Shown here: in pieces, positions 15,801 to 60,690 of the stretch | Numbering within the stretch: position 1 is the stretch's first letter | Layout: the number at the start of each line of letters is the position of its first letter | Assembly (NCBI GenBank): GCA_016647705.1 | Contig: CM028325.1 | Location: forward strand, 25,964,474 to 26,028,473 | Length of the DNA stretch: 64,000 nt | Direction of reading: 5' to 3' | From: Eucommia ulmoides | Lineage: Eukaryota; Streptophyta; Magnoliopsida; Garryales; Eucommiaceae | Notes under the pieces: generated by a model | What the model saw: only the letters and a program-made list of their open reading frames with translations | Told to the model about the DNA's origin: nothing | The model's database searches: none | Translations under genes and position numbers: made by a program

Positions 15801-15951
15801 ACCGCCTGAGCGGTGAGAATACTGGAAGAGCTGAAAAAATGAACAAGTCGCACTGCCTAGGCTGTAAAACGATAGAGAGTTTGGGAGTTGTTCCATCGCC
15901 TAGGCAGTGAATGACCAGAATATTAACCGACTTACCCACCGCCTAGGCAGT
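15801..15951 (+). repeat. Palindrome array in N1 5' LTR
   Basis: Four 14-bp dyads with 5-bp arms and a 4-bp centre: ACCGC-CTGA-GCGGT (15801), ACTGC-CTAG-GCTGT (15852), ATCGC-CTAG-GCAGT (15895) and ACCGC-CTAG-GCAGT (15938). Steps are 51, 43 and 43 bp. In the second unit both arms changed together, so symmetry is kept. The array ends about 50 bp before the TATA box. Confidence 0.85.
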
Positions 15952-16003
15952 CAACTCTGCACAGAAGAAAATATATTTTTAGATATTTTTGAAACCTTGA
16001 GCC

Positions 16004-16010
16004 TATAAAT
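16004..16010 (+). promoter_or_regulatory. TATA box of N1 5' LTR
   Basis: TATAAAT in GAGCCTATAAATACTTCTCC, conserved in the 3' LTR at 21664-21670 and, in shifted form, in S1 and S7. Confidence 0.7.
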
Positions 16011-16972
16011 ACTTCTCCCCCACTTGTGAAAAGGTTGTTGAACATTCCTAACCTTAGCTTAGGGTTATTTAGCCATTCTTGAGAGAGCAAGAAGAAAAGG
16101 TTCTTCATTTGAGAAGACGAAGCATTTGCGGACCGATCCTTAGCGACTGTGGACCATTCCACTTTGAGATTTGATCGTTCTTCCTTTATTTTTATCTTTG
16201 TAATTGCTTTTCCATATCTAATTATGTTGAATCACTCTTGTTTTGTATGTTATATGGCTAAGAACATGTAGTTTAGATAAATATTATCTAGGTATTGTTG
16301 TAAGTTATGTAAATGCTAGTTTGATTAAATATACGTTACTTTAATGGTTGTTTGTCTGAATCCGATTGTGTTTATCATTATTCTTGATATTATGCTAGTT
16401 TAGATAATTAGAGAATACGGAGTTTGATACTCGAGAGAGGTAACCCCGGATTCGGACTAGGGTAAACACAACACGACGTTCTAACGATCCGGAAGGATAC
16501 TAGAAGGTGTGCAATCCATGATGTTGGTTCAAGACTCATGTGATTATGTGTTCGAAAAGACATTCAAGAGGGACCTCAGCGTCAACTCGAAGTCATATCT
16601 TCGTTCGCTTTACACTCGGAAGAGGGAGTGAGTGAGTTGTAGATATAGAGATTGTCGGATAGGATAAACACCGTTATAGCTAACTAAACGAAGTCAAATA
16701 TGTATTACATGAAAGAAATCAATACCCAGGTAATCATATAGTTAGAACTAACCCAATAGTTGTAATTTATCTTACTTGTGATTAAAATACAAACAATTCT
16801 TGAAAAGTCGAGATAATATGAGACTATGAAAATCACGGTATTCAACTAATTTACACTATCCCCAGTGGAACGATATCCAATCTCACGATCTACCTATACT
16901 AAAACTTGACCTCGTTCACTTGCGAATAGTCAATACGCGAGTATGTAAACAAATGCTTGTCGTACAAGTTTT

Positions 16973-16990
16973 TGGCGTCGTTGCCGGGGA
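16973..16990 (+). other. N1 primer-binding site (tRNA-Asp type)
   Basis: TGGCGTCGTTGCCGGGGA starts six bases after the LTR end and matches the tRNA-Asp-complementary PBS of Athila-type elements almost fully. Confidence 0.8.
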
Positions 16991-17666
16991 TGTGTCTTAA
17001 TTTGGTTGATATTGTGACAAAGTGGTTGAATATTAATCCTGACAATTCTTTTGTTTTATTTTCTTTTAAATTATTTGTTTAATTTGTTTTGTAAGTTGTG
17101 ATCAAACAGTGCATGCAACGAAGAAGGAGTTTGGAATTCTTGGATCTTGATCCTGAGATCGAGCATACGTTGAAAAAGATAAGGAGAGAGAGAAAAAACC
17201 AACTTCAATACCATGAGTCGTGATCCAACGGAGCATTCTATCATAAATACCTTGTCTATGAGGGATTTTGGTGGAAAATGCTTAAGCAAATTTTCCTTCG
17301 GCTCAATCGAATTGGAAGGTGAAGAGGAAAAGATCAAGCTCTATTTCGATAATGAAAAATGAGTTGTGGAGAGTATCTCCCTCGTTGATGAATGATCATG
17401 CACTTTTCTAAGTCCAACTAGGAACGTTAAATCAATCAAATCTTTTTTATATGTCTCCGAGGGTATGAAACTTGCACATTTTTTGCTATTAATTATTTTT
17501 TGGAGACCGGAATGGTCTTGGAATGTGTTTGGAGAATAATTAAGGAGTATGGATATTTGGGGTTGTGTTTTGAACTTAAAATCGTTGAAATAGCGAAGTA
17601 GAAGTAAGTGGTGTGGAGCAAGGTTTTGAAAACATGAAGAAATTAAGCTAAATGTGCAGGAAATGC

Positions 17667-17853
17667 ACCGTCGAGGCAGTGAAAATACAGGATTCGTGGT
17701 TTTCAAGCTGTTGTTCCACCGCCTAGGCGGTGAAACAACAGAGAGTTCAGTTTCTGAAAAAGCGTTTCAACACCGAGTCGGTGATTCCCACCGCCTAGGT
17801 GGTGAAACAATGAAGGTTTGGGTTTTAAAAAAGCACTCCACCGCCTAGGCGGT
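17667..17853 (+). repeat. Palindrome array in the N1 internal leader
   Basis: Outside the LTR, between the PBS and the ORF, lie ACCGT-CGAG-GCAGT (17667), a perfect ACCGC-CTAG-GCGGT (17718), ACCGA-G-TCGGT (17772), ACCGC-CTAG-GTGGT (17790) and another perfect ACCGC-CTAG-GCGGT (17840). These internal copies are more regular than those in the N1 LTRs. They may come from a captured piece of a related LTR or be a retained functional array. Confidence 0.85.
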
Positions 17854-18499: not shown

Positions 18500-19620
18500 A
18501 TGTATCGAAAAAACCGCGCAAGGTAGTATCATCCTCAGCCATGGATTATGATTCATCTCGCTTCGTATCCAAATAAGCGGATGAACACTTTAACGCCCAT
18601 GAGTATAAGCGCACATGCATTCGGAAAAGGGGGTTTGGGCTTTTGGATGCCCTTCAGGAAGAATTCAAGGATGTCATAAGGAGCCGGGGTTAGGAACAAT
18701 TCTGCAGTTCACTCCCTAAGGGCGAGGTGTCTGTGGTCCGAAAATTTTATTCTAATATCACCGAGACCACTGACTACCGGACGAGGGTTAGAAATTGCCC
18801 CATCATGTTTAGTTCAGAGCACTTCAACAAGCTTTTGGGTTTGAGGGAGCTGGAAACCTCGAACGATCCATTTGAGCGTCACATGCCAGTTATGGACACT
18901 GTGCTCTAGGCCTTGACCATGGGCAACATTGAATGGAAAAACACAGAGCATGGTCAGGCCATATTTCTAGCGAAGTATCTGAAGCCTGTTCCAAAAATCT
19001 AGCATCACTTCGTAAGTGGGAACCTGCTTCCTACATCTCATTATTCCGACGTCTCCAAGGAGTGGGCTTTCTTGTTATATGACATCCAAAGGGGAAATAA
19101 AATCAACATCGATTGGCATATTTATTCTTCGATACTTCATGCAATTCAATCAACGAAGAAAAGCCTCCATTTTTCTTTGTTTCTGACTGCTCTATTCAGA
19201 CACGCTGGAGTCCCCATCACAGAGAATAGCCCTTGGCCGCCTAAAGCTCCGCTCGATCATGCAATGATTAACCGATTATGGAAGGGAGGAGACCTAGACC
19301 TAGATGTGCAAGAAGTTGAGGGAGATGAAGGCCTGGAAGAGGAAGAAGCAGGCCCATCTGAGGCCCCGATACCCGCAGTCCACCATCGCCAACCAAATCC
19401 AACTAATCGTGATATCCAGGATCTCCGGTCCGACATCGACAATATTCACAATGATTTTACTCCCATGGGAATTTTCCTGGATCAGTACACGCGACAGTAA
19501 GATCAAAACCAACGGCTTTTATACGAGCATCTTGGAGTCGACATGACTCTCTATTCACCAGTGCCACATTTCGACCCAGATGAGCTGCAGCCACCATTTT
19601 CTCCCCATGAACAGTAGGGC
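18500..19620 (+). pseudogene. N1 ORF: plant-transposon-protein domain (PF20167-like), broken
   Basis: The region carries the pattern of the 'putative plant transposon protein' domain found in Athila-like and other large non-autonomous elements: a RGFGLLDALQEEFKDVI-type start, then VSVVRKFYSNITE (18730-18770) and IMFSSEHFNKLLGL (18802-18845), then WHIYSSILHAIQSTKKSLHF (19114-19170) and LFLTALFRHAGVPI. An acidic tail (LDVQEVEGDEGLEEEEAG, 19290-19345) follows. The function of the family is unknown; it is not an integrase or RT. It is the only coding region seen in N1. Broken. Confidence 0.65.
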
Positions 19621-21267: not shown

Positions 21268-22627
21268 TGATAGATGTAAAATACCTATCTACTTCTAAGC
21301 TGAATTTGCCAGTTTTTGAGTATTTTATTAATGTTTTGATTGTGTTTTAATTGTTTTTATGTAAATCAAGTGTAGGGACGTAAACAAGTGACAAACGAGC
21401 GAAACGATGGGAAAACGATGAAGAAAAATGAAAGAACAAGGTTTCAAGAACAACAAACCCACCGCCTAGACAGTGAGAATGCTGGAAGAGCTGAAAAAAT
21501 GAACAAGTCCCACCGCCTAGGTGGTGAAACGACAGAGAGTTTGGGAGATGTTCCATCACCTAGGCGGTGAACGACCAGAATGTTAACTGACTTACCCACC
21601 GCCTAAGTGGTCAGCTCTGCACAAAAGAAAAGATCTTTTTAGATATTTTTGAAACCTTGAGCCTATAAATACTTCTCCCCCACTTGTGAAAAGGTTGTTG
21701 AATGTTCCTAACCTTAGCTTAGGGTTCTTTTGCCATTCTTGAAAGAGCAAGAAGAAAAAGTTCATCATTTGAGAAGACGAAGCATTTACGGACCGATCCT
21801 TGGCAACTGTGGACCATTCCACTCTCATATTTGATCGTTCTTCCTTTGGTTTTAGCTTTGTAATTATTTTTCCATATCTAATAATGTTGAATCACTCTTG
21901 TTTTGTATGTTATATGGCTAAGAACATGTAGTTTAAATAAATATTATCTAGGTGTTGTTGTAAGTCATGTAAATGCTACTTTGATTGAATATATATTACT
22001 TTAATGGTTGTTTGTCTCAATCCGATTGTGTTTATCGTTATTCTTTATATTATGCTAGTTTAGATAATTAGAGAATACGGGATTTGACACTTGGGAGAGG
22101 TAACCCCGGATTCAGACTAGGGCAAATACAACGCGACGTTTTAACAACCCGGGAGGACGCTAGAAGATATGCAATCCATGTTGTTGGTTCAAGACTCATG
22201 TGATTATGTGTTCGAAAAGACGTTTCGAGAGGGACCTCGACATTAATGCAAAGTCATATATTCGTTCCCTTTACACTCGAAAGAAGGAGTGAGTGAGTTG
22301 TAGATACAGAGATTATCGAATAGGATAAACACCGTTATAGCTAACTAAAAGAAGTGAAATATGTATTACAAGAAAGAAATCAATACCTAGGTAATCAATA
22401 TAGTTAGAACTAACCCAATAGTTTTAATTTATCTTAATTGTAATTAAAATACAACAATTCTTGAAAAGTCGAGATAATATGAGACTATGAAAATCACGGT
22501 ATTCAACTAATTTACACTATCCCCAGTGGAATGATATCCGATCTCACGATCCATCTATACTAAAACTTGACCTCAAGCACTTGCGTGTAGTCAATATGCA
22601 AGTGTGTAAACAAATGCTTGTCGTATA
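21268..22627 (+). repeat. N1 3' LTR
   Basis: 1360 bp copy of the 5' LTR. The palindrome array lies at 21461-21611: ACCGC-CTAG-ACAGT, ACCGC-CTAG-GTGGT (21512), ATCAC-CTAG-GCGGT (21555) and ACCGC-CTAA-GTGGT (21598). TATA box at 21664-21670. Confidence 0.9.
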
Positions 22628-23832
22628 GTGAGCCTCAAAACCTTCCTAGATTCTTTCCAGTTCAAGTGTGGAAGACGGGCCAAGCTAAGGACTCCGAGCA
22701 CCCTTAGCTCGAACATATACAAATAGGGGAGCTTACAACCATCTAGAAGCTCCTTCAAGTCCAAGTATCGAAGATTGGCCAAGAAGAGGGATCTGAGCAT
22801 CCTCAGCTCGAATCATCCTCTAAGTAGTCCCCTAGAGCCACCCTAAAGATTGAAGAAGCCGAGACGAGGGAACTGAGTACCCTCATCTCGGATTTTCTTC
22901 CACATAGATCCCTTAAGCCACTAAACTCAAGAAGAAGATCAAAAGAGTCCAGATGGAGGGGTTCGAGCACCCTCAGCTCAGACATCCTCCAAATGAGGCC
23001 TCTCAGATGAAGATCGAAGCCACATAGTTGAGTTGAGGGGTCTGACCATCCTCAGCTCAGATAATCTCTAAATAGAGCATCTCAAATGGAATTGAAGCTA
23101 CATGGCCGAGCTAAGGGGTCCGAGCACCCTCAGCTCAGACTTTCCCAAAAGGGGCCTCCTAGACGACTTTTGAAGCAGCATATCCAAGCTGAGGGGTTCG
23201 AGCACCCTCAACTCGAATTTACTCCAATTTGGCCCTCCCAGTTCACTATAAAGGTCAGCAAGCCGAATTGAGGGTTCCGTGCACCCTCAACTTGGATTCT
23301 TCCACAAATAAAGCCCCCAAGACCGCTTTAAAGCTCCTAATGCTATTATTGGTGTCCTCTCCACTTCTTGATCAGTTAGAGGGGCTAAAAATGAGCCCTT
23401 AATCTCTATTTCAAATGGGTCGGCTCATGGAATTCTACAAGTGAGCCCAAAAGCCCCGTCCAGGTGTTTAGAGCCCAAATTTGTGATCTCATTGATTGCC
23501 TGCCAAATTAAGCTAATTAACCGAGCTGAGGTCCCTAATTTCGCTACGCTAATCGAGCCTTGTGCCCTATATATACTCCTAGACATACATTACCCAAAGG
23601 TACTTGATTGTATTTCACTCTAGCTTATTTTTAAACTTTTCCCCCTGGATACTTACTCTCACACCAGATGGACCTCACTAGGTACCACCCCGGTAAGCCT
23701 TTGTGTAGGTGTTCAAAGTGTAGACGTGGAGCTCAGCTCGAAGATCGGAACAAAGTCTAGAAAGGACTTTATCTCAAAGTTTTAAGAGGATCTCATATCA
23801 AAGTACAACGAGGAGCTCAGGTTGAATTTAGA
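22628..23832 (+). repeat. G1 3' LTR, second part
   Basis: Continues the LTR after N1, beginning with the second GTGAG. It holds about eight hairpin units (22675-23285), roughly two more than the 5' LTR over the same span, and the TATA box at 23568-23575. Homology to the 5' LTR stops at about 23832. The following 23833-23989 matches nothing recognised. Confidence 0.85.
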
Positions 23833-23989
23833 AACAACACAATTAAGAGAATAAAAGGGGCAAGGGCTTTAGATCGATCGGATTGTCTAGGGAAACAATC
23901 TGAACACAGGTAAACAAAGGGTAAAATTGTAGTAAGGAGTAGAGAGAAGGCATCGCTGGAACAGAAACGTTGAGTGGCCAAAGACAACT

Positions 23990-25959
23990 TATTGATCCTA
24001 AGATTTTCATGAACAATTAAGTATTGATATTTTGATGGAACTAATATTTTAATTCAGTGTTTCAGTGATTTAAAGTTCTAGTGATGAAGATGTCAAATTA
24101 AATGGATGCTAAATGATGAAATTGAAGATATTAAAGATTAAATTAAATGGATACTAAATGATGAAATTGAAGATTTAAGAGTTTGAATAAATTAGGGAAA
24201 ACAATCCAGGTAAATTTCAACTCTTAATATCCCATTTAGGAACACATACGGCACAAAATATTTTTATTATTTATGTGTGTTTTAATTGAGATGAATTTAT
24301 TTGCTCCTATGTGTATTTGAAAAGAAATATTTATAAATGGTTAAAATGGAATTTGAGAAAGTTAGTTGAACTAATTGAGAAAAGAAATTAGTTAAAGGGG
24401 CAAAAATGTAAAATAGAAAGACTTTAAAATGTGATAAGAGAATAGATGCAGAAGGTAGCAGTCGACTGAGGAGTCAACCGTCGAATAGTGGCTGAACTCT
24501 CTAAATCGACGAGTCGACTGATAGGTTGATCGGTGAGATTAAATGAAAGTCTCTAAATCAAGAAGTCGACCGATTAATTGCATTGGCTACATCCTGAATC
24601 TCCGAGTCGACTGGGCAGTCGACTGGTGGCTCTGTTTCAGGATCATGCGGATTCCGAAATCATATCTAAAAGTAGCCCTTTTTTGTTAGGATTTGAGAGA
24701 GATTTAAGGGATTTGGCGATATTTAAGATATGGTTCATATATTAATTACATCCTATTGATTTGGTACATTAAATATTAATGTTTCTCAATTTGGTACTTG
24801 AAATAGTTTCTATGCTTATTAATTGAGATTAAGAAATACTTTGGGGATTTAATTGAAAGATTTGAAAGTTGTTTTTAAGTGAAATTGAATCTAAATAAAG
24901 TCCTTATAATATAAGGGGTCTATAGGAGCGTTTAATTGTCATGACACTTGTAAACTAGCCGTTAGAAGGCTGATTACATGTGCCTTTAAATAGACATGCG
25001 AATTTCATTAGCAAATTTAAGCAGTAAAGAAGAGAAATTATATCATATCATAAGAGTGAGCTTTTCTAAGAGTTATATTTCTGAGAGTTTGTGAGTTATT
25101 CTAAGAGTGATCTTGAAGATCAATTGTGATTAATATTTGCTGCTACCGGATCTGAAGTTATAATTGCTTTATCTGATTATTCTATGGATTCCGGGTGAGA
25201 TATTTCCAATTATATTCTTTCATTACATTACTTGTTTATATTTTAGAAATTGATCTTAGAAATTATTTCTGATTTGTTAAAGAAAATATTTTTACAAATA
25301 ATTTCTTGAATCTTATTACGTGCTTCAATTTGCTACCCATATCTTGTTAAAATTAGATTTTGTATCTCACGTTTTTCTATCACTAATTGGGAAATTAATT
25401 GAGTTATTATTTATCTGAGCTGGTAGAAGCTCCGATTGAGATTTCCTACTTATCATTTTGTATTGGTGAGTAGTGTGATGGGTTAAATATCGTTGGGGAT
25501 ATTTAATCAAGGGTAGCCGGGTTTTGGCTTTTTCCTGTAAAGAGATTGAGGTAGTGATTCTTCCTAGATAAGAATTGCGTTGTGAGTGAATTGTAAAGGT
25601 TCCATCCTTACCTGTGAAAAGGATACTTGGAGTGTTATGTGAGGTTTTGATTCTTGAGCCGTAGTGATAAAAAGAATTAGATTAATATTTAACCTGTGAA
25701 AAGATAGGTTATTCTTGAGCTTCTAAAAAGTAGAGGTTATTCTTGAGCCTGAAAAAAATTTGTAAAGGTTGATTCTGAGTCTGTAAAAGAATCGGTGTGT
25801 GGGTTTAGTTTCTACCTGTAAAGGGATCTTGAGAATTAGTGGGTACGAATCTCCGTGGGGCTCGAAAGACTGAACTAGCCAAGAATAGTTTGGTGAATTA
25901 AGATATATCTTGGTGTGCTATATTATTACTTTGTTATTTTTATTATTTGGGTGTGCACC
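23990..25959 (+). mobile_element. K1: copia (SIRE-like) LTR, truncated
   Basis: Same family as the LTRs of E1 and E2. It starts at a TATTGATCCTAAGATTTT and follows the S2 solo LTR closely, with the GTCGAC-type array at 24460-24640, a TATA-like TTTAAATAG at 24985-24993 and the end part TGTGCTATATTATTAC...GTGTGCACC. It stops at about 25959, short of the usual LTR end. No internal region is attached. It may be a truncated solo LTR. Confidence 0.8.
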
Positions 25960-34315: not shown

Positions 34316-34700
34316 TGATAGGTGTAATTTACCTATCTATTTCCAAACCAAACTTGTTAGTTTTCGAGTATGTTTATTATGTTTTAATATATTTTTATGT
34401 ATTTTTGTATAAATCAGGTGTGTGGGGGTGAAAAGGCATGAAAATGGATCATAAATGATCAAATCAGATCAAGAACGATGGAAGAACGGTGGGAAAACAA
34501 GCTTAAGAGCAAAATTCATAACTGCAACCTACCACCGCGGCATCAAGACCATCGTCGTAGCAGTCAATATGTAGAAAAGGCCTAAATGTTGTTAAATATC
34601 TACCGCCACGGCTGTGAAAGAACATAGAGGTCTCTACTCCCACAGCCGTGTCTACCACCGAAGCCGTAACCCAGCCGACATACCCACCGCCGTGGCGGTC
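34316..34700 (+). mobile_element. S4: 5' fragment of a TGATAGG-type LTR, fused to E1
   Basis: TGATAGGTGTAATTTACC at 34316 matches the N1 LTR start and runs for about 385 bp. Palindromes here have yet another centre: ACCGC-CACG-GCTGT (34602) and ACCGC-CGTG-GCGGT (34686). At about 34700 the sequence changes within a few bases into the E1 LTR (CAAATCTAGGTGC), leaving out the rest of this LTR and about 155 bp of the E1 LTR. It lies at the 3' end of K2. Confidence 0.75.
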
Positions 34701-42311: not shown

Positions 42312-42879
42312 ATCTCCCTTTTTTTTATGATTACAATTAATTTTGATGTTTTCTTCAAAACAAAAATATAACCACACTTTCCCTGAATCCGAGGACGGGT
42401 TTTATAACTCATTTAAGCATCATAATGAAAATTTCAAAAAATATAATCAATAAAGCACAAAAAAAATACACCTCCTTAATAAAATATCATCTAATTTCTC
42501 CCCCTTTGTCATCTTCAAAAACAAAATTTAGGAAGGGGGGAATATCCAAGTAACTCTAGGCATTCATATAATATTCTTGAAAGAATAAACCTAAAGTAAT
42601 TAAATCTGGATATATGTAACTCTTTTAAAAGCACATTAAATCAACTCATAAATTCAACTTTTAAAAATCAAAACTCATTTTTACAAATTAACTTTTAAGC
42701 ACAAAACATCAACATTATGTGGATCATTTTTATAAATAAATATCAAGTCTACTTAATCCAACAAAATCCACACCAAAAACATCTTTCTGAGCATGCAATA
42801 TTCCTCTATCAAATTGTAAATGAATAATATTCATGCATAGGTGAATAATCATAACATTTCAGCAATATAGCATGATATT
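42312..42879 (-). other. E2 internal, 3' side; no coding motif
   Basis: AT-rich, similar to the sequence next to the E1 3' LTR (36880-37300) but without recognisable RNase H. Ends at the target site of S2 (ATATT, 42875-42879). Confidence 0.6.
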
Positions 42880-44982
42880 TGTTGATCCCAAGATTTTGAT
42901 GAACAATTAAGTATTGATATTTTGGTGGAACTAATGTTTGATCAAGTTTTTTAGTGATTTAAAGTTTCAATAATGAAGATGTCAAAGCAAATGGATGCTA
43001 AATAAAGATATCAAGATGATGAAGAAGTATTAAGAGTTTGAAGACATTAGGGAAAACAACTCAGGTAAATATAAACTCTTCATATCCTATTTAGGAACAC
43101 ACACATGGCACAAAATGAATTTTTTCTTTTATGTGTGTTTTGGTTGAGTATATTTATTTGCTCCTATGTGAATTAAAAAGAAATAATTTTGAATGACTAA
43201 AATAGAATATAAGAATATTAGTGGAGTTCATATAAATATGGATAAAGCGACAAAACTATAAAAGAAAGTAAGTTAAAAACGAGATCAGATAAGAGATTCA
43301 GGAGAGGGCAGTCGACTGGAGAAAGAAGATAAACTCTCTGAATCTACGAGTCGAGAGAGAGATCGACCAATAGAAGCTTGGCAAACTCTCTGAATCTGTG
43401 AGTCAACAGAGCGGTCGACCGGTGGAAGTTTGGCAAACTCTCTGAATCTGCTAGTGGACTGAGGAGTCGACCAATAAAGTGCATGGGCTACTTCCAGTAT
43501 CCTTCAGTCGACTGGGCAGTCAACTGAACGTGCAATTTTAGGATATTGGTTTATCCAATTTTAAATCCAAAAGTAGTCATTTTTTGTTAAGATTTGAGAG
43601 AGATTTAGGGGATATTCTTAACATTTGAGATATGGTTCATATACTAATTAAATCATTTCAATATGGTTCATTAATTATTAAAGTTTCTCAATTTGGTACT
43701 TAAAATGAATTTTATACTTATTTGTTTTGATTAAGAAATACTTTGGGGATTTAATTGAGAGTTTTAAAAGTTGTTATTAAGTGAAATTGAATCTAAATGA
43801 AGTCCTCATGTTATGAAGGGTCTATAAGAGTATTTTATTATCATGACACTTGTAAATTAGCCGTTAAGAGGTTAATTACATATGCCCTTATATAAACCTG
43901 CGAATTTTCTAAGAGAGCTAATCATTCTAAGAGATAAAATCAATCTATATCTTTTTGAGATAGCGTTTATTAGAGTTATCATTTAACGATATTGTGAACT
44001 GTTCTAAGAGTGATTTTGATAATCAATTGCGATCAATTTGTGATGATACCGGAATTGAAGTTACATTATTTTCATCATTAATTTTGTGGATTCCAGGTGA
44101 GATCTTTCCATATTGATTATTACATGTTTATTATTGTATTTTAGAAATTGATCTTAGAAATTATTTTTGATTTTTTAAAGAAAATATTCTTTCAAACAAT
44201 TTCTTGAATCTGATTACGTGCTCCAATTTGTTACCCATATATTGTTAAAATCATATTTCTGTATCTCACATAATTTTATCACTAGTTGGGATATTAATTG
44301 AGTTTATATATATCTAGGGTGGTAGAAGCTCCGAGTGAGATTTGCTTATCAATTTTTATATTGGTAAGTTGTGACGGGTTAAATATTATTGGGGATATTT
44401 AATCAAGGGTAGTTGGATTTCAGTCTCTTCCTATAAAGAGATTGAGATAATGATTCTTCTTGAATAAGAATTTCAAGTTTGTGAGTGATTTTGTAACGGT
44501 TCAATCCTTACCGGGTAAAAGGATATTTGGAGTGTTTTAGTGAGATTTTGATTCTTGAGCCTAAGTGTTAAAAAAAAATTAGGTTATTCTTTAGCTTGTA
44601 AAAAGTAGAGGTTATTCTTTAAGCCTTTGAAAATGAAATTGTAAAGGTTGATTCTGAGCCTATAAAAAAAATCGGTGTGTGGATTTGGTTCCTACTTTTA
44701 AAGAAATCTTGGTTTTAGTGGGTCCGACCTCCGTGGAGCTCGGGAGACTGGATTAACCAAGAATAACTTGGTGAACCAGTATAAATCTCTGGTGTGCTAT
44801 TTTCTTAATTTGTCTATTTTTATTTTTTGTGTGTGCATCTAGTTAATTGATAAATTCCGCTGTGTTATAAAGATAATAATTAATTTAGGCTTAAAATTAA
44901 TTATTTGATTTATTTATTTTCACTCTGATTATTTTTAATTACCCAATTCACCCCTCTTCTTGCATATTCTACTAGGCCAACA
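42880..44982 (+). mobile_element. S2: solo SIRE-like LTR with perfect ATATT duplication
   Basis: TGTTGATCCCAAGATTTTG...GGCCAACA, 2103 bp, opposite in orientation to E2. Target duplication ATATT at 42875-42879 and 44983-44987 is perfect. TATA box TATATAAA at 43889-43896. Repeated units of about 60 bp at 43310-43530 carry ACTCTCTGAATCTG...AGTCGACTG...GGTCGACC. Being inside E2 inside E1, it is one of the youngest insertions here. Confidence 0.92.
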
Positions 44983-47006: not shown

Positions 47007-49028
47007 TATTGGTCCAGTGGAATACCCAAGAAGATGGGTGAATTGGATAATTTAAAAATTATCAGAATAAAACTTGAATAAATCAAATAATTAATTTTAA
47101 TCCTAAATTAATTATTATCTTTATATCGCAGCGGAATTAAATAATTAACTAGGTGCACATCCAAACAGCAAAAATAGCAAAGTAAATATTACAGCACACC
47201 AAGATATATCCTGGTTCATCAAGTTACTCTTGACTAGTACAGTCCTTCAATCTCATAATCAACCTTTACAATATCATTTTTTCAGGTTAAGGAAGAACTT
47301 CTACTTTTTACTAGCTAAAGAATAACCTAATTCTTTTTAACATTAAGGCCAAAGAATCTAAACCTCAACAATCACTCCAAATATCTTTTTACCCAGTAAG
47401 GATTGAACTGTTACAAATTTCATTCAAAACGCAATTCTATCTAGGAATAATCACTACCTTAATCTTTTTACCAGAAGAGACTGAAAACCAACTACCCCTA
47501 ATTAAATACCTCCAATGGTATTTAACCCGTCACACTACTCACCAATATAAATTGATAAGTAAAACATCTCACTCAGAGCTTCTATTACCCCAGATAAATA
47601 ATAACTCAATTAATATCCCAACTAGTGATAGAAAAACATGAGATAGAAAATCTTATTTTAACTAGATATGGGTAGCAAATATTTGCACACGTAATCAGAT
47701 TCAATAAATTGTTTGTAAAATATTTTTTTTCAATAAAAAATAGAAACAATTTCTAAGATCAATTTCCAAAATATAAACAAGTAATGCAATAATAGAATAT
47801 AATTGGAAAGATCTCGCCCAGAATCCACATAAAGAATAAATAAATCGATGTAACTTCAAATCCGGTAGCAGCAAAGATTAATCGCAATTGATTCTCAAGA
47901 TCACTCTTAAAATAGTTCACAAACTCTTAGAAAGATAACTCTCAAAAAAGCTCACTCTTATGATATAATATGATTTCTCTTGCTCTTTCATATAAGAAAT
48001 TTGCAGGTCTATTTAAGGAAGAATGAAAACAACCTTCTAACGACTAGTTCACATGTATCATAACAATTAATAGCACTTATAGACCCTTTATATCATAATG
48101 ACTTCATTTTGGTTCAATTCACTTAATGACATCTTTCAAATATTTTAATTAAATTCCCCAAATATTTCTCAAACTCAATTAGATAAAATAGAAACAATTT
48201 TACGTACCAATTTGAGAAACATTAAAAATTAATGAACCAAATCAATAGGATTTATATTTCAGGTGAAGCATACCTTAAATACAAAAATATCCCCAAAATC
48301 TATCTCCAATCCTAACTAAAAATGGCTATTTTTAGATATAATCTCAGAATAAACAGTTTCCTGAAACAACGCGTCTAGTCGACCGACCAGTCGACTGGTA
48401 AATTCAGGTTGTAGCCAAGGGCGTTCAACAGTCGACTTGTCTGTCAACTTGTAGATTCAGATAGTTCGTTTTTCCTTCACCGGTCGACTTAAAGATATAG
48501 ATAGTTTAGCTCCTCTTGGCCGGTCGACTTGCTTAACGACTTAAAGATAAAAGGAGTTACAGCTGCTTGATCTGGTCGACTTATCAGTCGACTTACATCT
48601 TCTGAATCTCTATTCTGAACTTCTTTTTAACTTATTCGTTTTTACGTTTTCACCGCTTTAACCATTTTCTTTTCTAAATAAGTTTCACTAATCTTTTTAT
48701 ATTCCATTTTAGTTATTTAAGCATATTTATTTTCAAATCACATATTGGAGAAAATAATGGCATTTAATCAAAACACACAAAAATAATAAATACTTTTTAT
48801 GTTGTGTGTGTGTTTCTAATTGGGATATTAAAAGTTAACATTTACCTGGGTTGTTTTTATTAATTTCTTCAAACTCTTAATTCTTCAATATCTTCAACAT
48901 CATCGTTTAGCATCCATTTAATTTGCATCTTCATCACTGGAATTTTAAATCACTAAAATACTCAATTAAAACATTAGTTCCACCAAAATATCAATACTTA
49001 ATTACTCATCAAAATCTTAGGATCAACA
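47007..49028 (-). repeat. E2 5' LTR
   Basis: 2.0 kb copy of 40197-42311. It holds the perfect 14-bp palindrome ACCAG-TCGA-CTGGT at 48386-48399 within an array at 48360-48600. Confidence 0.86.
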
Positions 49029-49184: not shown

Positions 49185-51379
49185 TATTGGCCCAATGAGC
49201 TACCCAAAAAAAGGGTGAATTGGGTAGTATTAAAATTATCAAAGAAAGCACTTCAAAAATTCAAATAATTAATTTTATCCTAAATTAATTATTCTCTCTT
49301 TATATCGTAGCGGAAATATATTATCAACTAGGTGCACATCAATCAATAAAAATAAATAATGTAAAGATAGCAGCACACCAGAAATTTATATTGGTTCACT
49401 AAGCTACTCTTGGCTAATCCAGTCCTCCGAGCCCCACGAAGAGTCGCACCCACTAAACTCAAAATTTCTTTAAAGGTAGGAACCAAACTCTTAGAATGAT
49501 TCTTTTCACAAGCTTAGAATCAACCTTTACAAATTTCTTTTTCCAGACTCAGGGATAACATCTACTTTTTATAGGCTCAAGAATAAACTCTTCTTTTTTC
49601 AGGTTCAAGAATAACCTAATTGTATTACAGAAAGAATCATGACCTAATTCTTTTTATACCTTAGGCTCAAGAAGCAAAACCTCGCAATCACTCTAAGTAT
49701 CATTTTCCCAGGTAAGAATGGAACTTTTACAAATCACTCACTAATTCAATCAAGGAAAAATTAACACCTCAATCTCTTTATCCGAAGATATTAAAACCAA
49801 CTACCCTTTGATTAGATATTCCTAATAGTATCCAATCCGTCACTCAACTTACGAATGACAAATTGATAAGTGATTTTTCCACTTGGAGCTTCTACCACCC
49901 TAGATAAATTAGAACTCAATTAATTTCCCAACACTTGTGATAGAAAAGTGAGATTTTCAAAATCTGATTTTAAACAAAAATTGGGTAACACGTAATTGAG
50001 CACATTATCAAATTTCTCAAGAAATTGTTTCAAAAATATTTTTCAATAAAAAATCTGAAAAATAATTTCAAATATCAAATTCCAAATAATAAATAATATA
50101 ATCAAGCAACAATTAATAACAAGTAATTTGGAATGATCTCACCAGGATTCTACCGAATAAATAATGATTAGCAATACAACTTCAAATCGGTGATTAACAA
50201 TAATTTTCTTCAATATCTCAAGAATGATTTTCAAGACAATTCTTAGAAAACTCTCAGTATGATAACTCTTAGAAAGCACAAGAGCTGAATAGCTTAGAAT
50301 GATTTATCTCCCATCTCTCTTAGAAGTGAAAAACACAGGTCTATTTAAAAGAGAATAAAATAAGTTCTCCAATGGCTAGTGCCCACTTGTTATGACATTT
50401 AATTACTCTTATAGACCTCTTATATTATTATGACTCATCTCAGATATAATTCACTCAAAAATATCTTTTAAAACTTTTAATTAAATCCCTCAAACTTTTT
50501 CTCAAACTCAATTGAATAGAATTGAAAGAATTATACATACCAAATTGAGAAACATCAAAAATAATTGAACCATATCTATAGGGATATTTTAATATCATTT
50601 AATTAACTTAAAACATATTATATCCCTAATACATCTCGTGAATCTTAACCATAAAACAGCTAATAATGGCTATTATTCAAATCAGAATACGAAATCCCAC
50701 AAATCCTGAAACAGACTGATCAGTCGACCGACCAACACGAAGCTGTGGACCACTCGATTTAGGATGTAGCCAAGCCAAAAATTCATCGCTCATCGGTCAA
50801 CCTATCTGTTGACCTAGAGATTTAGAGAGTTTCACTTCTGGTCATAGGTCAACCTCCTTGTTAACTGATCAATTCATAGAGTTCACTATTTAAGCACAAG
50901 TCGACTTATCAGTCGACTGACTAATGTTGGAAAACTTCTCCAAATTTGATTTTAATTCATTTACTTCGAGGTTTTCAGCCCTTCAACCTATTTCTTTTTT
51001 TGGTTAGCTCCACTATATTCTTAAATTCCATTTTATTCGATTATCTTTACTGCTTTTTCAAGATCACATAGGAGCAAATAATTTCACTAATTAGGATCCT
51101 ATAAAAACACACATAAACTTTTAAAAAACTTTTTGTGTCGTATATGATCCTAATTGGGATATTAAGAGTTGAAATTTAACCTGAGCTAATTTCCCTATGT
51201 TTTTCAAATTCTTCAACCTCTTAATCCTTCATTATCTTTGTCATCATCTTTTAACATTCATTTATTACTTGTCATCATATCTTCATCATTGGAACTAATA
51301 AATTGAAGCACTCAATTAAACCATTAGTTCTACCAAAAACATCAACATTTAATTGTTCATCAAAATCTTAGGATCAACA
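49185..51379 (-). mobile_element. S3: solo SIRE-like LTR in E1
   Basis: 2195 bp; plus-strand ends TATTGGCCCAATGAGC and GGATCAACA. Target duplication TAATC (49180-49184) and CAATC (51380-51384), one base different. E1 sequence resumes on the right at the WVPKG linker, as in E2 at 45440. Array of GTCGAC/GTCAAC words at 50710-50930. Confidence 0.85.
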
Positions 51380-51384
51380 CAATC

Positions 51385-52917: not shown

Positions 52918-55289
52918 TTGGCCCAGTGAGCTACCCAAGACGAGGGTGAATTGGGTAGTTATAAAATTTTAAATAATTTAAAACACTTAATTAATCAAAT
53001 AATCAAGTTTATCTTAAATCAATTATTATCTTGTTTCGCAACAGATAAGTGTTCAAATCTAGGTGCACACCTAAATAACAAAATATAAATAAAGTAAATC
53101 AATGGAACACACCAAGATATATCTTGGTTCATCTAGCTAACCTTGGCTAATCCAGTCCCCTGAGTTCCATGAAGATTTACACCCACTAAAAATCCAAGAT
53201 TCCTTTAACTATAGAAACCAAACTCTCGCAACGATTTTTTTCACAGACTCAAAATCAACCTTTATAATTCCCTTTTCACAGGCTAAAGAAAAACCTTATC
53301 TTTTTGCAGACAAAAGACTAACCTAATTTTATTACAGGAAAAATCATAACATAATCTTTTTACCATGCTAAGAATCAAATATCACAAATAATCTAAGTAT
53401 CATTTTCACTGATAAGGATGGAATCGTTACAATTCACTCAAAAATGAACTCTATTTAGGAAGAATTCACACGTAATTTTTTTTCAAGGGAAAAGAATTAC
53501 CTAACTTTTTTATCCACTAGTCAAAGATCAAACTTCAATCTTTTTTCCAAAAATGATTGAAACCCAAGCTACCATTAGATACAATACCAACCGTATCCAA
53601 TCCGCACAAACTCACCAATTACAAAAACTCACTAAGTTTCTTTTCACTCGAAACTTCTACTACCTCAAACCAATTAAATTCAATTAATGTCCTAATAATT
53701 ACTAAGTGATAGAAATTAAGTGAAGAATTCAATATTTTATTATAATATGTGTGGGTAGAACAAAATAAAGCACGTAATCAAATAATTACAAAAATCATTT
53801 TAAGAAAACAAATTATGCTCTTAAAGTTCAAAAAAAAATTTAATACGACCTTATCAACCAAGAAAATATAGTAATATGATTTCACAATAAAGAATGATAG
53901 CTTGGAAATATCTCACCAGGAAAACACCGAAATATTGAAATCAGAATAGCAAGAAAGCACAAATCAGTGACGCCAACTCAATAGCGTTTTTTCTCAAGAA
54001 CTTCTCACACGATAATCTCTCAATATATCTCTCCAATGTATCTTAGAATAATAACTCTTAGAAAGCTCATGAACTTTTATAGTTCTTGATTGATGTGTTC
54101 TAATGATATGAAATTCGCAAGTTTATTTAAATTTATTTGAAACAACCCTTCTAACAGTTAATTTCCTCAGGATATGACATTTAAATACATCTATAGACCT
54201 CATATATCATAACCATTCATTACTGGTATAATTTACTCAAATATAAATTTTAAAACTTTCGATTAAATCCACAAATTATTTCTCAATTTCAAATCTCATA
54301 GATAGAAAGAATTAAATTAACGAAATTGAAAGACACTTCAATTTTATATATCATATCTATATGAATATCAAAATAAATGTGATATATCTTAAATATATTC
54401 AAATCCCAAGAATATCTTAATCAAATATACCAAAAACGGCCAGTTAACGGCTAGTATTTGAGTTGATCCTTAAAAATCTCGAAATTCTAATAAGACAGTC
54501 GGTTGACCGATCATCAGCCCATCGATTAACCGATTAATACAGATTGTTAAGCTTTTTTATCCCTTAAGGCATTCAATTGACTGACCCATCCTTGGTCAGT
54601 TGACCGATCAATGCAGGTTGTATTTCTAGGCCAATTTTAAGCCTTTGTCAGTTGACTGATCCCCTACGGTTAGTTGACCGATCTATACAAAGAGTTTTAC
54701 TTCGGGCAATCGGTTGACTGATCTCCCATGGTTGGTTGATCGATCGATTTAGAGACTTCTATATTTCTAGCCTTCACCCATCGGTTAACCGAACCTTCAC
54801 CCGTCGATAGATCGATTATTGCTGGAACACTCACTTTTCAAATTATTTCAACTCCAAACTTTATCGTTTTAATCCCATTAGCCAATTTATTTTCATGGTT
54901 AACTCAATTGACACTAATATTCAATTTTAAACACTAATCTTACTTAGGTCAATTTTCATTTTTCAATTTCACATTGGAGTAAATAATTAAACACCAATTA
55001 GGATCTTAATTTTATCAAATTAAACACACATAAATATAACTCATTAATTTGTATCATGTGTGATCCTAATCGGGATACATTAAAAGTAAAAGATATTTGA
55101 GTTGTTTTCACCTAATTTCTTTAGAATCTTCAATACTCTTCATCTCTTTAATGTCTATATCTGCATCTTAAATAATTACTTCATGATTTGATCTTTAATG
55201 GAACTTTTTATACTGAAACACTCAACAAACACATTAGTTCTACCAAAAATATCAACCTTTAATTGTCCATCAAAACATCGGGATCAACA
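52918..55289 (-). repeat. E1 5' LTR
   Basis: 2.37 kb. Plus-strand ends TTGGCCCAGTGAGC and GGGATCAACA. Array of GGTTGACCGATC-type words at about 54490-54810, a sequence variant differing from the GTCGAC form in E2. The right end lies next to an Athila-like polypurine tract of A1. Confidence 0.85.
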
Positions 55290-55499
55290 ATAAGTAATAC
55301 AATCATTTACCCCCCCCCAAACCTAAATCACGCAGTGTCCTCAATGAGAAAAATATGAAATTAATTGGTAAGGAAAGATATTACCTGGTGTAACTGATCT
55401 GTATAGTCTGACTAAATAATTGTAAACATGTATGTCACATCACTAAAGAAAAATCATAAAATTAAATATATAAAAGCAAAAACTAAAATCTAAAGCAAC

Positions 55500-56016
55500 A
55501 TTGGGTTGCCTCCTACTCAGCACTAAATTTTAACGTCTTTAGCCAGACGATGAGTGTTTTAACTCCAGTAGCTGTAGTGGAGTAGTCCACTCCTCATATT
55601 TTATTGAGTTACTCTCCAGTCGATGAGAAATTTGTCATAGGAGACAATAAAATTCCTCAACTTCTTTCCAGGATCAAATAACATTTCTTTTCTGTGGGTC
55701 TTACTTGGTAGTCTTTTTATTAAGACTCTAAATAGAAGTTGTGTGTAGTCAACGCATTGAATTGGACATGAATTATTTTGGGTTGACAATTGGTCCACTG
55801 CATCAAAAAGATATATTGTGATTTTGGGATGCGATAGTATAGGAATAATGGATGATTTAATCAAAGGAAGATTATCTAGATATATCACTGGTGGTTGGAT
55901 CTCATCTTCCTTATGATTTTCTACCCTAACCTATTGCATGTACGTATTTTTAGTTTCAAACTTCATCCACTCATCGTCACTTTCGTATATGACTATTTTC
56001 TTTGCCTTACTCAATG
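55500..56016 (-). pseudogene. A1 coding part, function not recognised
   Basis: A minus-strand frame of 95 codons (55888-55601) contains VDQLSTQNNSCPIQCVDYTQ and GKKLRNFIVSYDKFLIDW, and ends soon after in an RLAKDVK-type tail next to GGGTTGCCTCC on the plus strand (55503-55513), whose complement GGAGGCAACCC is a common end phrase of Athila-like coding regions. Which protein it was is not clear. Confidence 0.4.
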
Positions 56017-58104
56017 GTAATTGTTGATCCTAAGATTTTGATGAACAATTAAGTATTGATAGTTTGGTGGAACTAATATCTTAATTGACTGTTTCAGTGA
56101 TTTAAAGTTCCAGTAAGGAATGTGACAAATTAAATGGATGCTAAACGATGAAGTTGCAGATATTGAAGAATTAAGAGTTTAAAGAAATTAGGGAAAACAA
56201 CCCAGGTAAATCTTAACTCTTAATATCCCAATTAGAAACACACACATGGTACAAAATGTATTTTATTATTTATGTGTGTTTTGATTAAGTGAAATTATTT
56301 GCTCCTATATGATTTGAAAAGAAATAATTTTAAATGACTAAAATGGAATATAAGAATATTAGTGAAGCTAATTTAGATGAGAAAATGGTTAAAGAAGCGA
56401 AAACGTAAAAGAAAATAAGTTAAAAACATGTTCAAAGAAGAGATCCAGAAGACATCAGTCAACTCATAAGTCAACCAGACCAAGCAGCTGAAAGATCATG
56501 TATCTCTAAGTCGGCTGACAGATCGACTGGCCAAGAGGGCTGAACTCTCTGAATCTACATGTTGACCGACAGGTCGACCGGTGAAGGAAAAGCAAGCTCT
56601 CTAAATCTATAGGTCGACCGATAAACGCCTTGGCTACAACCTGAACCTACCAGTTGACTGGTCGGTCGACCAGACGCGTTGTTTCAGGATACTGTTCTAT
56701 CCGAGATTATATTCAAAAGTAGCCATTTTTTGTTGGGATTTGAGAGAGATTTCGGGGATATTTTCTATATTTAAGATATGGTTCACATATTAATTAAATT
56801 CTATTAATATGGTTCATTAAATGTTAATGTTTCTCAATTTGGTATTTTAAATTGATTCTATTCTAATTAATTGAGATTAAGAAATATTTGGGATTTTAAT
56901 TGAGAGATTTGAAAGCTATTTTTAAGTGAAATTGAACCTAAATAAAGTCATTATGATATAAGGAGTCTATAAATGTTATTAATTGTCATGACACATATAA
57001 ACTAACCATTAGAAGGCTGATTTCATATTCCTATATAAAGACCTATGAATTTCTTATATCATTAACGAGAGAGAATCAATCAATATGAAGAGAGTTGTTC
57101 TAAGAGTTATTATATTAAGATATTGTGATCTTTTCTGAGAGACGATCTTGAAGATCAATTGCTATTATTCTTTGTTATTACCAGATTTGAAGTTACATCG
57201 TTCTAATCATTCTTTCTATGGATTCCGGGTGAGATCTTTTTAATTATATTCTTTCATTACATTATTTGATTATTGTTGGGAAATTGATCTTAGAAATTAT
57301 TTCTGATTTTGAAGAAAATATTTTTACAAACAATTTCTTGAATCTGATTACGTGCTCCAATTTGCTACCCATATCTTAGTCAAAATCAATTTTTTCTATC
57401 TCACGTTTTTCTATTACTAAATTGGGATATTAATTGAGTTATTATTTATCTGGGGTGGTAGAAACTCTGAGTGAGATTTCTTGCTTATCATTTTTTGTGA
57501 GTAGTGTGACGGGTTAAATACTGTTGGGGGCATTTTATCAAGGGTAGCTGAGTTTCAGTCTCTTTCTGTAAAGAGATTGAGGTAGTGATTCTTCTTGGAT
57601 AGAATTGCGATTTGAGTTATTTGTAAAGATTTCATCCTTACTTGGAAAAATGATAGTTGGAGTATTTTGTGAGGTTTTGATTCTTGAGCCTTAATGTTAA
57701 GAAGAATTATAGCCTGTAAAAAGTAGAGGTTCTTCCTTAGCTTGGGAAAAAGATATTGTAAAGGTTGATTCTGAACCTGTAAAAGAATCGATGTGAGGGT
57801 TTGGTTCCTACCTTTAAAGGGATCTTGATTTTAGTGGGTGCAACCTCCATAGAACTCGAGGGACTGGAGTAGCCAAGAGTAGCTTGATGAACCAGTATAA
57901 ATCTTTGGTGTGTTGCTATATTTACTTTATTATTTTTGCTATTTGGGTGTGCACTTAGTTGATTTTATTATTCCGTTGTGATATAAAGATAATAACTAAT
58001 TTAGGATTAAAATTAATTATTGGATTTATTGAATTTTATTCTGATAATTTTTTAATTACTCAATTCACCCCCTCTCTTGGGTATTCTACTCAGCTAACAG
58101 TGAT
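56017..58104 (+). mobile_element. S5: solo SIRE-like LTR (56022-58099) in A1
   Basis: TGTTGATCCTAAGATTTTG...TCAGCTAACA, 2078 bp, target duplication GTAAT (56017-56021) and GTGAT (58100-58104). TATA box TATATAAA at 57032-57039. Array at 56450-56690, including the palindrome CTGGTC-GGTC-GACCAG at 56658-56673. It splits the A1 coding region. Confidence 0.88.
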
Positions 58105-58790
58105 GGTTGAGCCAAACACGACTCAAGCTCAGGATCAAATCGTTGATATTCCTCACCAATTTCCTTACCTTCCTAATTATCAAACCCAAGATTACTCTTC
58201 GCATTTTCTTTTAAAAATTCAATGATTCGCGCTAACTTGGGCTTTATCCCAGTCTATCTCCCCATATTTCTCTTTCAAAGATTGAGCTCGCCTTTCTAAG
58301 ATTTGGTTTTGCCTTTTGTGAGATCTCGTCTTGCTTTACTAATGGCTGGTGGTTCTCTTCTAAGGTTTGGCATTGTTCTGCTAAGGCTTGGCAGCATTTT
58401 GCTAAGGATTTTTTCTCCTCCAATAGTTTTAGGATTTGTTGAATTATGGTGGGTTTAGCATTCCTAGCTTGTTGAGGAAACAATGGTTGGCTTTGGGATT
58501 GGTTATAGGATTGATCGTCAAAGTGTGTCCCTAAATGTTCACTATAATAATGTTGATTCCATCCATAATTGTTTAAATACTGATTATACTCAATCGATGA
58601 ATAGTATGGATCGAGATAAACACTATTATAGAAACATGTGAGGCTTGAAAATTTTTAACGACATTAATCGATGAGATGAGCAGGATTTTGACATATAGTA
58701 CATAGATATGGATCGAGTTGCGGCTTTGGAAATTCGAGTGTTCTAATTTCTCAATCAAAATGGTTAATCTCATTTATTCAGCATCTATTG
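58105..58790 (-). pseudogene. A1 gag-like region, broken
   Basis: On the minus strand a possible zinc knuckle (CTICQNPAHL-type, around 58700) is followed by a Tyr/Asn/Gln-rich part (NNYGWNQHYYSEH, SYNQSQSQPLF) and a coiled-coil-like helix LLEEKKSLAKCCQALAEQCQ (about 58430-58370). This layout resembles the C-terminal half of gypsy gag, but the assignment is weak. Confidence 0.4.
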
Positions 58791-58889
58791 TCCTTAGTCC
58801 AATTTTTTTTTTTTTTTTTTTTTATGCAATTAAAATCAAAATTATATAAACAAAAGAGGATAGTGGCTCAGCCTGCCGATTCTCAATAG

Positions 58890-60690
58890 AAAATAAAAAT
58901 AAAATAAAGAGTAGGAGATTTAACCTTCCTGTCCAACAGAAATTAAAGATAATAAATTTAAGAGTATGGGTTTTAATCTCCTGTCCAGCAGAAATTAAAG
59001 ACAATAAATTAAAGAGTAGGGGTTCTAACCTCCTATCCAGCAAAAATTAAATACAATATATTAAAGAGTAGGGGTTTTAACCTCTTGTCCAGTAATAGCG
59101 CGTAAATACGTCGCTACTTTCACCGCAAGTGTACGGGTCAAGTTTTAGTATAACTTGGAAGAGTTAGGATTGTTGTATCCATGGGAATTGGATTAGACGG
59201 TCATTGAGTACCACAATTATCATAAACTAACTTTATCTAGGCGATAAAAATGTAATTTTTTATAATAAAATTATATTAAACTAAGTTAATTAATCTAATA
59301 TACAAATATAGTAGTATGATGTTTATGGAAAATTATTGTCTAGTGATTAATTTCGTTCACTTAAACGTGTTTGTTTCAATCTAGTTTACATTAACGACGT
59401 TCATCCTATCCGACAATCTCAGTATCAAAAGTTCATTCACTACCTCCCTCGAGTGTAAAGTGAATGAATATATGACTTCGCGTCAACGTCGAATTCTCCC
59501 TCGAGCGTCTATATGACACTTGGTCACATGAGTGTCGCCCCAACGTCATGGATTGCACACTTTCTAACTCCTTCCAGAGTTATTAGATTGTCGTGTTGTA
59601 TTTAAACCATAGTTCAAATCCAAGGTTACCTCTTCCGAGTGTCAAACCCCGATTTCTCAATATATCTAAACAAACATATAAACGTAGAATAACGATAAAC
59701 ATAATCGGATAAACACGAACAACCATTAACGAAACATAAAATTTATATAAACAACGTTTTCGTAAAGTACATCAAGCCCTAGACAATATATGTTTAGCTA
59801 CACATGGCCGTAGCCCTATATACAACTAGAAATAAGCTAAACATATTTAAAACATTCAACTAAACTAAGAGAGAAATGAGGAGACTAGCCATTATCAGAA
59901 GATCCGACGCTAAAATCGCTTAGAGAACGCTTCCTCCTTCTTCGCATTGTGATCTTCTATTGGTTGAATGGCCTTAGAGCTCTCAAGACTCCCAAAAAAC
60001 ATCTCCTATTCGTTAGGGGAGAAGAGGGACGATATTTATTGGATTCAAAATATCTCAAAATATCCTAAAAAATCTGGCACTGACCGCTGCAGCGGTGGAG
60101 CTCTATCCACTTTGACCGCTGCAGCGGTGAAACTACCTCTGTAGCAGTGAAGCTTCAACAAACTCTCTGTATTTTTACCGCTGCAGCGGTGGTTTCAACG
60201 CTGCAACGGTGGATGCAAGTTCAAAATTTGATCTTTTTGTTCTTTTTCTCTACCGTTCTTCCATCGACTTACTCGTTTATAGATCGTTTTAGTCCCTTTT
60301 CACCCCCAAATACCTAGTTTATAACAAAATAAATGAAAACATATTAAAAAATAATAAAACGCTATAAAAATACTCAAAAACTACCAAAATCGACTTGAAA
60401 ATATATAGACAAAATACGCCAATAAAAACGTGCTAAAATATAATAAAACGCTATAAAAATACTCGAAAACTATCAAAATCGGCTTGGGAATATATAGACA
60501 AAATACACCTATCATCCAGCAAAAATTAAAGATGATTATAAAAAAGTAGGGGTTTTAACCTTCTTGTCCAACAGAACTTAAAGACAAAAAACTTAAAGAG
60601 TAGGGGTTTTAACCTTCCTGTCCAATAGAAATTAAAGACAAAAAATTAAAGAGTAATAATTTTAACCTTCCTCTCCAACAGAAATAATAA
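58890..60690 (-). repeat. A1 leader minisatellite, split by S6
   Basis: A unit of about 55-60 bp, on the plus strand ACAGAAATTAAAGACAATAA then TTAAAGAGTAGGGGTTTTAACCTCCTGTCC, repeats about four times in 58900-59092 and three more in 60515-60690. The solo LTR S6 sits between the two blocks. The GGGGTTTTAACC core can fold on itself. Confidence 0.8.
59088..60519 (-). mobile_element. S6: solo LTR of a TGATAGG-related family (59093-60514)
   Basis: On the minus strand it begins TGATAGGTGTATTTTGTC and ends GCGCTATTA; 1422 bp; perfect target duplication TCCAG at 59088-59092 and 60515-60519. It shares the distal conserved block (59390-59650) with N1 but has a different palindrome array. Five units at 60083, 60115, 60135, 60177 and 60197 have centre TGCA (one TGTA); three are perfect ACCGC-TGCA-GCGGT. 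Confidence 0.9.

Follow-up and report, generated by a model that had tools for sequence, protein, structure and literature searches.

Long terminal repeats (LTRs) of the TGATAGG type in a 64,000-nt stretch of Eucommia ulmoides DNA (contig CM028325.1), called the window here, were found to carry arrays of a short palindromic box, ACCGC-N4-GCGGT, in their U3 region. The window is plant-like in base composition (35% GC) and dense with nested LTR retrotransposons, and all results come from copies within it rather than from a genome-wide comparison. The arrays are named A5 and A3 for the 5' and 3' LTRs of one element, A, UTR for an array in the leader of A, and S1, S4, S6 and S7 for other TGATAGG-type LTRs, as seen in Table 1. 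With up to two mismatches allowed, the box had 25 matches, compared to a mean of 3.21 and a maximum of 8 in 100 dinucleotide shuffles of the window, and the arrays claimed in a preliminary description of this DNA are therefore real. Nineteen of the matches lie in the U3 arrays of six TGATAGG-type LTR copies, four in the UTR array and two elsewhere (2820 and 9371). All ten arm bases are intact in seven boxes (15801, 17718, 17840, 34686, 60083, 60115 and 60177). Five are palindromic over all 14 bp (17718, 17840, 60083, 60115 and 60177); the last three are the TGCA-centered S6 boxes that had been called perfect before, which was confirmed. The internal array at 17667-17853 and further degenerate boxes in S1 and S7 were not part of that description. 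Three candidates (17687, 17769 and 12910) were excluded as boxes, and the stretch at 17769 contains an odd-centered dyad.

We lean toward reading the boxes as an upstream enhancer array of a plant LTR retrotransposon lineage that serves a two-fold-symmetric host factor. Each box of about 18 bp, with a dyad core of 10-14 bp, would be bound by a dimeric host transcription factor. With the boxes spaced by roughly whole helical turns, both among themselves and relative to the TATA box, several dimers would line up on the same face of the helix and would raise transcription of the element's RNA. The dyads would be kept in active lineages, and after insertion and silencing the boxes would decay without constraint. 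We infer that protein binds the boxes, that the factor is dimeric and host-encoded and that the outcome is activation. NF1-type sites in retroviral U3 regions are sites of a dimeric factor with inverted half-sites at fixed spacing. The boxes resemble them in having two inverted half-sites, a fixed spacing and a U3 location, but differ in that the center here is conserved within a lineage. LBD proteins, named as a candidate in the preliminary description, are not supported because the published LOB core, GCGGCG (PMC10118128), is absent from the arrays as GCGGCG or CGCCGC; the sole copy in the window is a CGCCGC at 29653.

In A5, A3, S7, S6 and S1 the array is followed by a TATA-like box, in agreement with the earlier claim that the arrays stand upstream of TATA; S4, which the claim included, is cut at about 34703, and no TATA box of its own was found. 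The distance from the last box to the TATA box, obtained by subtraction, is 53 bp in each of A5, A3 and S7, 43 bp in S6 and 31 bp in S1. The first box lies 184-305 bp into the LTR (184 in A5, 194 in A3 and 197 in S7). Neighboring boxes are separated by gaps of 18-21, 32-34, 42-43, 50-53 or 69-72 bp. These gaps were scanned for a period by counting each length once per array and the spacing shared by A5 and A3 once, and by omitting a 272-bp gap in S1. The best period was 10.3 bp (mean cosine 0.65; scan-corrected P = 0.0004, with uniform gaps of 16-75 bp assumed). The S1 gaps of 21, 42 and 209 bp, added after the first test, fit too (P = 0.004), and the five gap classes and three TATA distances taken jointly gave P = 0.002-0.006 for periods of 10.2-10.6 bp. 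At the aligned place, A has a last gap of 43 bp and S4 one of 32 bp; a similar shortening in S7 was apparent only by eye, and its boxes are matched up differently in the alignment. Box gaps near whole helical turns are suggestive and favor a DNA-bound protein. Helical phasing of the boxes and the TATA box is also a measurable prediction that could separate a DNA-binding model from an RNA-hairpin model.

Within arrays, the boxes are 66-86% identical to each other while their flanks are 22-42% identical (0.22-0.36 outside S7). The arrays are thus not simply tandem duplications, although S7 is partly one, with a 70-bp tandem duplication at 63092-63225. The conservation and flank statistics are based on 37 sites; relative to the 35 sites used for covariation, the half-site at 34636 was dropped and 63273 and two S1 sites were added. 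Another possible explanation is that symmetry was never selected, and that local duplication and recombination among boxes multiplied a palindromic seed, with the arrays hitch-hiking. The S7 duplication speaks for this, as do three results given below, namely the larger difference of A5 and A3 in their boxes than in the rest of the LTR, the lack of covariation and the directional flanks. However, box-adjacent sequence is hardly repeated outside S7, the box is retained in several diverged LTR lineages at a similar distance from TATA, and decay of single copies is expected of dead elements. We regard this neutral origin as unlikely.

The center of the box is mostly CTAG in A5, A3, UTR, S7 and S1 and mostly TGCA in S6, and it switches only between lineages. 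This agrees with the earlier claim of a self-complementary center specific to each subfamily, except in S4, where the unsymmetrical variants CACG and CGTG are not self-complementary. In the CTAG lineages (A5, A3, UTR, S7 and S1; 28 sites), conservation was highest in the middle of the box, with 1.6-1.8 bits over C-CTAG-G, and dropped outward. This peak is the opposite of the constant arms and changing center that had been proposed; that pattern fails in S7 and S1, where the center is most conserved, and holds only between lineages. Apart from four S7 boxes of one exact form (Table 1), the boxes of S7 and S1 are more variable. The hexamer CCTAGG has 31 copies in the window, and 23 of them fall within the 2.3 kb of U3 and leader (of 64 kb); the copy at 63454, beside the S7 TATA box, is not a box.

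Several results weigh against the enhancer reading. Complementary arm pairs numbered 125 of 175, compared to 128.9 +/- 2.4 when right arms were shuffled within arrays (P = 0.97), and compensatory evolution was rejected for these copies. Across the 35 sites, 117 of the 175 pairs were unchanged and 48 had a change in one arm; in the other 10 both arms had changed, and 8 of these still paired while 2 did not. All 8 of the complementary double changes (of 10) come from S7 and S1, for which common ancestry is a likely cause, and shuffling right arms across all arrays gave P = 0.09. Arm positions thus change independently in these mostly decayed copies from one window, an outcome that the preliminary description had named beforehand as contrary to its proposal. 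Its two examples of a partner arm changing to match do not hold either, since the box at 15852 (ACTGC/GCTGT) has T opposite T and the one at 60197 (AACGC/ACGGT) has two unmatched pairs. The flanks are asymmetric. Of the 37 sites, 27 have C at the second base 5' of the box and 31 have A at the second base 3' of it, where a symmetric unit would have T opposite A; taken as a whole, the unit is therefore not a pure dyad. The outer arms of S7 and S1 are often mismatched, which limits symmetry there to about the inner 10 bp. With regard to spacing, a lesser periodicity peak was seen near 8.4 bp. Because gap lengths are partly shared by descent, a stricter test was made with the five distinct gap classes alone, and it gave P = 0.01-0.09 for periods of 10.2-10.6 bp (0.05 at 10.5). 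The three TATA distances (53, 43 and 31 bp) alone gave P = 0.12 at 10.2 bp and 0.004-0.02 at 10.4-10.6 bp. The phasing is suggestive and not settled since the idea arose after the first gaps had been seen. The strong RNA folding of the arrays, described below, also belongs to these points.

The decay of the boxes after insertion was examined by comparing the two LTRs of A. A5 and A3 differ at 12 of 56 box positions (21%) and at 107 of 1289 positions (8%) in the rest of the LTR (Fisher P = 0.0025). Eleven of the 12 box differences are transitions. Four of the 12 lie in a CpG present in either copy. CpG positions differ at a similar rate within boxes (4 of 12) and elsewhere (28 of 100), so the excess in boxes cannot be put down to CpG decay alone. 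Among 17 sites of A5, A3, UTR and S6, 10 of 18 arm changes from the box consensus were transitions at CpG positions, of which each half-site has one. A reading of the decay as pure CpG deamination was therefore borne out only in part. At each of the 12 differences one LTR keeps the consensus base, suggesting that the boxes were probably more symmetric at insertion. If so, asymmetry in old copies is no evidence against selection in active ones. Selection for the dyad in the source elements, as claimed earlier, is supported by conservation of boxes beyond their flanks, by their recurrence upstream of TATA in LTR lineages that have diverged and by near-helical spacing. Compensatory change gives it no support, and inserted copies accumulate differences faster in the boxes than in the remaining LTR.

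Predicted RNA folding of the arrays is strong. Windows of 110 nt reached -41 to -53 kcal/mol on at least one strand in A5, A3, UTR, S4, S6 and S7, and S1 reached -39.4; a value of -40 has been published as a miRNA-like cut-off (PMC10760457). On the sense strand of the LTR, only A3, UTR, S7 and S6 passed -40 (A5 -34.9, S4 -31.1 and S1 -31.9). Whole-array z-scores were -4 to -8, with S4 the exception at -1.3 and -2.0. Other parts of the window fold as well or better, including dyad arrays of a Ty3/gypsy-type element (-56). One-sided arm changes had no wobble bias, with 14 C-to-T changes opposite G, tolerated as G-U, and 20 G-to-A changes opposite C, which are not tolerated. The dyads could act as RNA, where the U3 array at the 3' end of the transcript and the leader array would each form stems of 5-6 bp with tetraloops and also pair with one another; the resulting double-stranded RNA would be processed to small RNAs and attract methylation, as argued for maize Sireviruses; a function at the RNA level such as dimerization is a variant of this. 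The folding of six of the seven arrays past -40 and their z-scores fit this idea, as does the excess of small RNAs reported on palindromic Sirevirus regions (PMC10760457, citing Bousios 2016). Yet any repeated palindrome is expected to fold well, so folding cannot separate DNA and RNA models, and the limited folding of the sense strand, the lack of compensatory changes within arrays, the absence of wobble bias and the position of the arrays upstream of TATA at helical spacing all argue against it. An RNA function seems rather unlikely.

The TGATAGG lineage is probably of Ty3/gypsy type, judged by a primer-binding-site-like stretch in A that resembles the tRNA-Asp type. The preliminary description knew of no system of this form, which proved wrong, as palindromic boxes upstream of TATA are described in Sirevirus LTRs. 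Bousios et al. (2010; PMC2829016) report palindromic repeated boxes (RM) in 13 Sireviruses, with 8-32 copies to an element, placed ahead of TATA in the LTR. The RM core is CGG-CCG in all but one (Tnd-1, without the signature), the intervening bases vary by element, and elements with an envelope gene carry extra clusters upstream of it (PMC2829016). The arrays here are similar in being short palindromic boxes with an element-dependent center, which start a few hundred bp inside the LTR and precede TATA. The published position, from 200-400 bp into the LTR, agrees with ours, with A5, A3 and S7 just under 200. Some of our arrays, which are 128-381 bp long, are shorter than the published 300-500 bp. 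The UTR array likewise precedes an additional gene, here a stretch encoding PF20167 and not an envelope. As for copy number, published as at least 8 per element for one LTR plus linker, A has 4 boxes in the LTR and 4 in the leader and S7 has 10 in the LTR, while S4, S6 and S1 have 4, 5 and 6, counted in LTRs alone.

There are also differences from the Sirevirus boxes. The TGATAGG core is everted, CCGC-N4-GCGG as opposed to CGG...CCG, and the carrier is probably of Ty3/gypsy type, whereas Sireviruses are Ty1/copia. RM boxes form CpG islands in most of the published elements, with two RM-bearing elements lacking them (PMC2829016). The arrays here have a GC content of 47-54% and a CpG observed/expected ratio of 0.57-1.06, which is below that of the whole LTR in all five LTRs compared (A5, A3, S6, S7 and S1), and a CpG-island reading was not supported. 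With an everted core and no CpG-island excess, the boxes do not carry the Sirevirus signature and are best grouped as the same kind in another lineage. What is new is the LTR lineage, the everted CCG...CGG arms and the helical spacing; the kind is already known from Sireviruses. Since the RM box was called Sirevirus-specific and absent from classic Ty1/copia elements (PMC2829016), our finding extends palindromic U3 boxes to a probable Ty3/gypsy-type LTR lineage with an everted half-site. The maize Sirevirus cis-region, as published, is also similar in its LTR palindrome clusters, its strong predicted RNA structure and a motif that likewise starts with CACCG (PMC10760457), but our arrays are in LTRs of probable Ty3 type.

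Dyad arrays occur in three LTR families within the window. Sirevirus-type LTRs, a different family from the TGATAGG LTRs by sequence, were recognized by polypurine/LTR junction-like sites on the minus strand at 42321 (two mismatches) and 36883 (one mismatch) and by gag domains of copia type on that strand. Matches to the published Vitis Sirevirus box, CGGTCGACCG (PMC2829016), with up to two mismatches numbered 24 in 34703-58100, compared to 0.5 expected. In one of these LTRs the nearest box is followed, about 120 bp further on, by a TATA candidate (41528, minus strand). That the published Sirevirus boxes share the layout of the TGATAGG arrays counts in favor of the enhancer reading. The third family is a Ty3/gypsy-type element, whose probable LTRs flank reverse transcriptase, RNase H and integrase zinc-binding domains that were assigned to it by position and strand. 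Its LTRs carry dyads of the form AGCTGAGGG-N9-CCCTCAGCT every 65-108 bp, upstream of TATA boxes at 1738 and 23568. Covariation in these dyads was apparent by eye (four compensated and one uncompensated double changes in 17 units), but shuffling gave no significant result (P = 0.24); 17 of 20 units were used, with 1437 and 22951 (other spacer lengths) and the weak 9930 omitted. A 98-bp tandem repeat at 9966-10224, downstream of the element's integrase-type open reading frame (ORF), has motifs that resemble the LTR dyads by eye; a dyad scan of 9900-10300 gave one weak match only.

The Sirevirus copia, Ty3/gypsy-type and TGATAGG lineages could have evolved dyad arrays upstream of TATA independently, with the TGATAGG arrays helically phased and the lineage center acting as a specificity code for different dimeric factors, one of them possibly element-encoded. 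We consider this full scenario improbable. If several LTR lineages did converge on dyad arrays, this would hint at a general rule of plant retrotransposon promoters. A related proposal is that the boxes are targets of an element-encoded anti-silencing or self-activating protein, as VANC is for VANDAL transposons, and that the center is a self-recognition code. The published VANC targets are tandem arrays of short motifs that diverge between families (PMC5735166, PMC10398659), and our arrays are likewise non-coding, made of a short motif and divergent between related families. The switch of center between lineages (CTAG, TGCA) with the inner arms unchanged fits such a code, and in A a PF20167 ORF stretch is preceded by a separate array. 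On the other hand, nothing links PF20167 to DNA binding, and the interior of A holds only short open stretches. VANDAL is also a DNA transposon with a known element-encoded binder, and the main text of PMC5735166 does not use the word 'palindrome'. We consider an element-encoded binder very improbable here.

The interior of A has 44 ORFs of 45 or more amino acids, all short; a Pfam scan of 3 of the 44 found one PF20167 and no polyprotein domain. The UTR array is a diverged U3 fragment, with BLAST similarity to the A3 U3 (E = 3e-11, 63% over 155). Scanning for TGATAGG-type LTR starts returned 15618, 21268, 34316 and 62898 on the plus strand and 13334 on the minus strand. S4 is interrupted by a Sirevirus-type LTR, which starts (34700-34712) within about 10 bases of the last S4 dyad, and no continuation of S4 was recognized by eye in 55292-56060. 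Among the papers listed in literature searches, no description of this box in Ty3/gypsy LTRs was recognized by title or abstract opening, which is not proof of absence, and a search with the box core as text gave matches unrelated by title. For relatives in viral_contigs, DNA-pattern scans gave 0 matches, and a protein scan gave 7 candidate stretches with no confirmed relative.

Table 1. Dyad arrays and the elements that carry them in the window
Feature	Positions	Strand	Remarks
5' LTR of element A (TGATAGG type)	15618-16964	+	90% identity to 21268-22625; TATA at 16004
A5 dyad array, U3 of 5' LTR of A	15801-15951	+	boxes 15801, 15852, 15895, 15938
Primer-binding-site-like stretch of A	16969-16989	+	tRNA-Asp type; one mismatch to consensus
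UTR dyad array, leader of A, upstream of PF20167 ORF	17667-17853	+	boxes 17667, 17718, 17790, 17840
Open stretch with PF20167 (Transposase_32, putative plant transposon protein), inside A	19003-19500	+	E = 2e-13
3' LTR of A	21268-22625	+	TATA at 21664
A3 dyad array, U3 of 3' LTR of A	21461-21611	+	boxes 21461, 21512, 21555, 21598
S4, truncated TGATAGG LTR	34316-34702	+	boxes 34551, 34602, 34654, 34686; half-site 34636
S6, probable solo LTR	59093-60514	-	5-bp duplication TCCAG on both sides (by eye); TATA-like at 60040
S6 dyad array	60083-60210	-	five boxes, four TGCA-centered, three perfect
S7, TGATAGG LTR extending past window end	62898-64000	+	TATA at 63462
S7 dyad array	63094-63409	+	ten boxes, four exactly [A/T]CCGC-CTAG-GCGAA
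S1, divergent TGATAGG LTR	11734-13334	-	lower end approximate; TATA-like at 12700
S1 degenerate dyad array	12731-13111	-	six CCTAGG-centered boxes
Ty3/gypsy-type element, probable LTR pair	675-2003 and 15384-15593 + 22628-23833		A nested in second
Sirevirus-type LTR repeats with CGGTCGACCG-like boxes	24459-24616, 36206-36394, 41648-41805, 43309-43505, 48376-48521, 50721-50910, 54500-54782, 56571-56663		

The start of the S6 LTR is too divergent for the TGATAGG scan, and S6 was recognized by BLAST and by eye. Together with its TCCAG duplications (59088-60519), it sits within an array of 52-54-bp tandem repeats, with the repeat present at 58898-59092 and 60541-60685.

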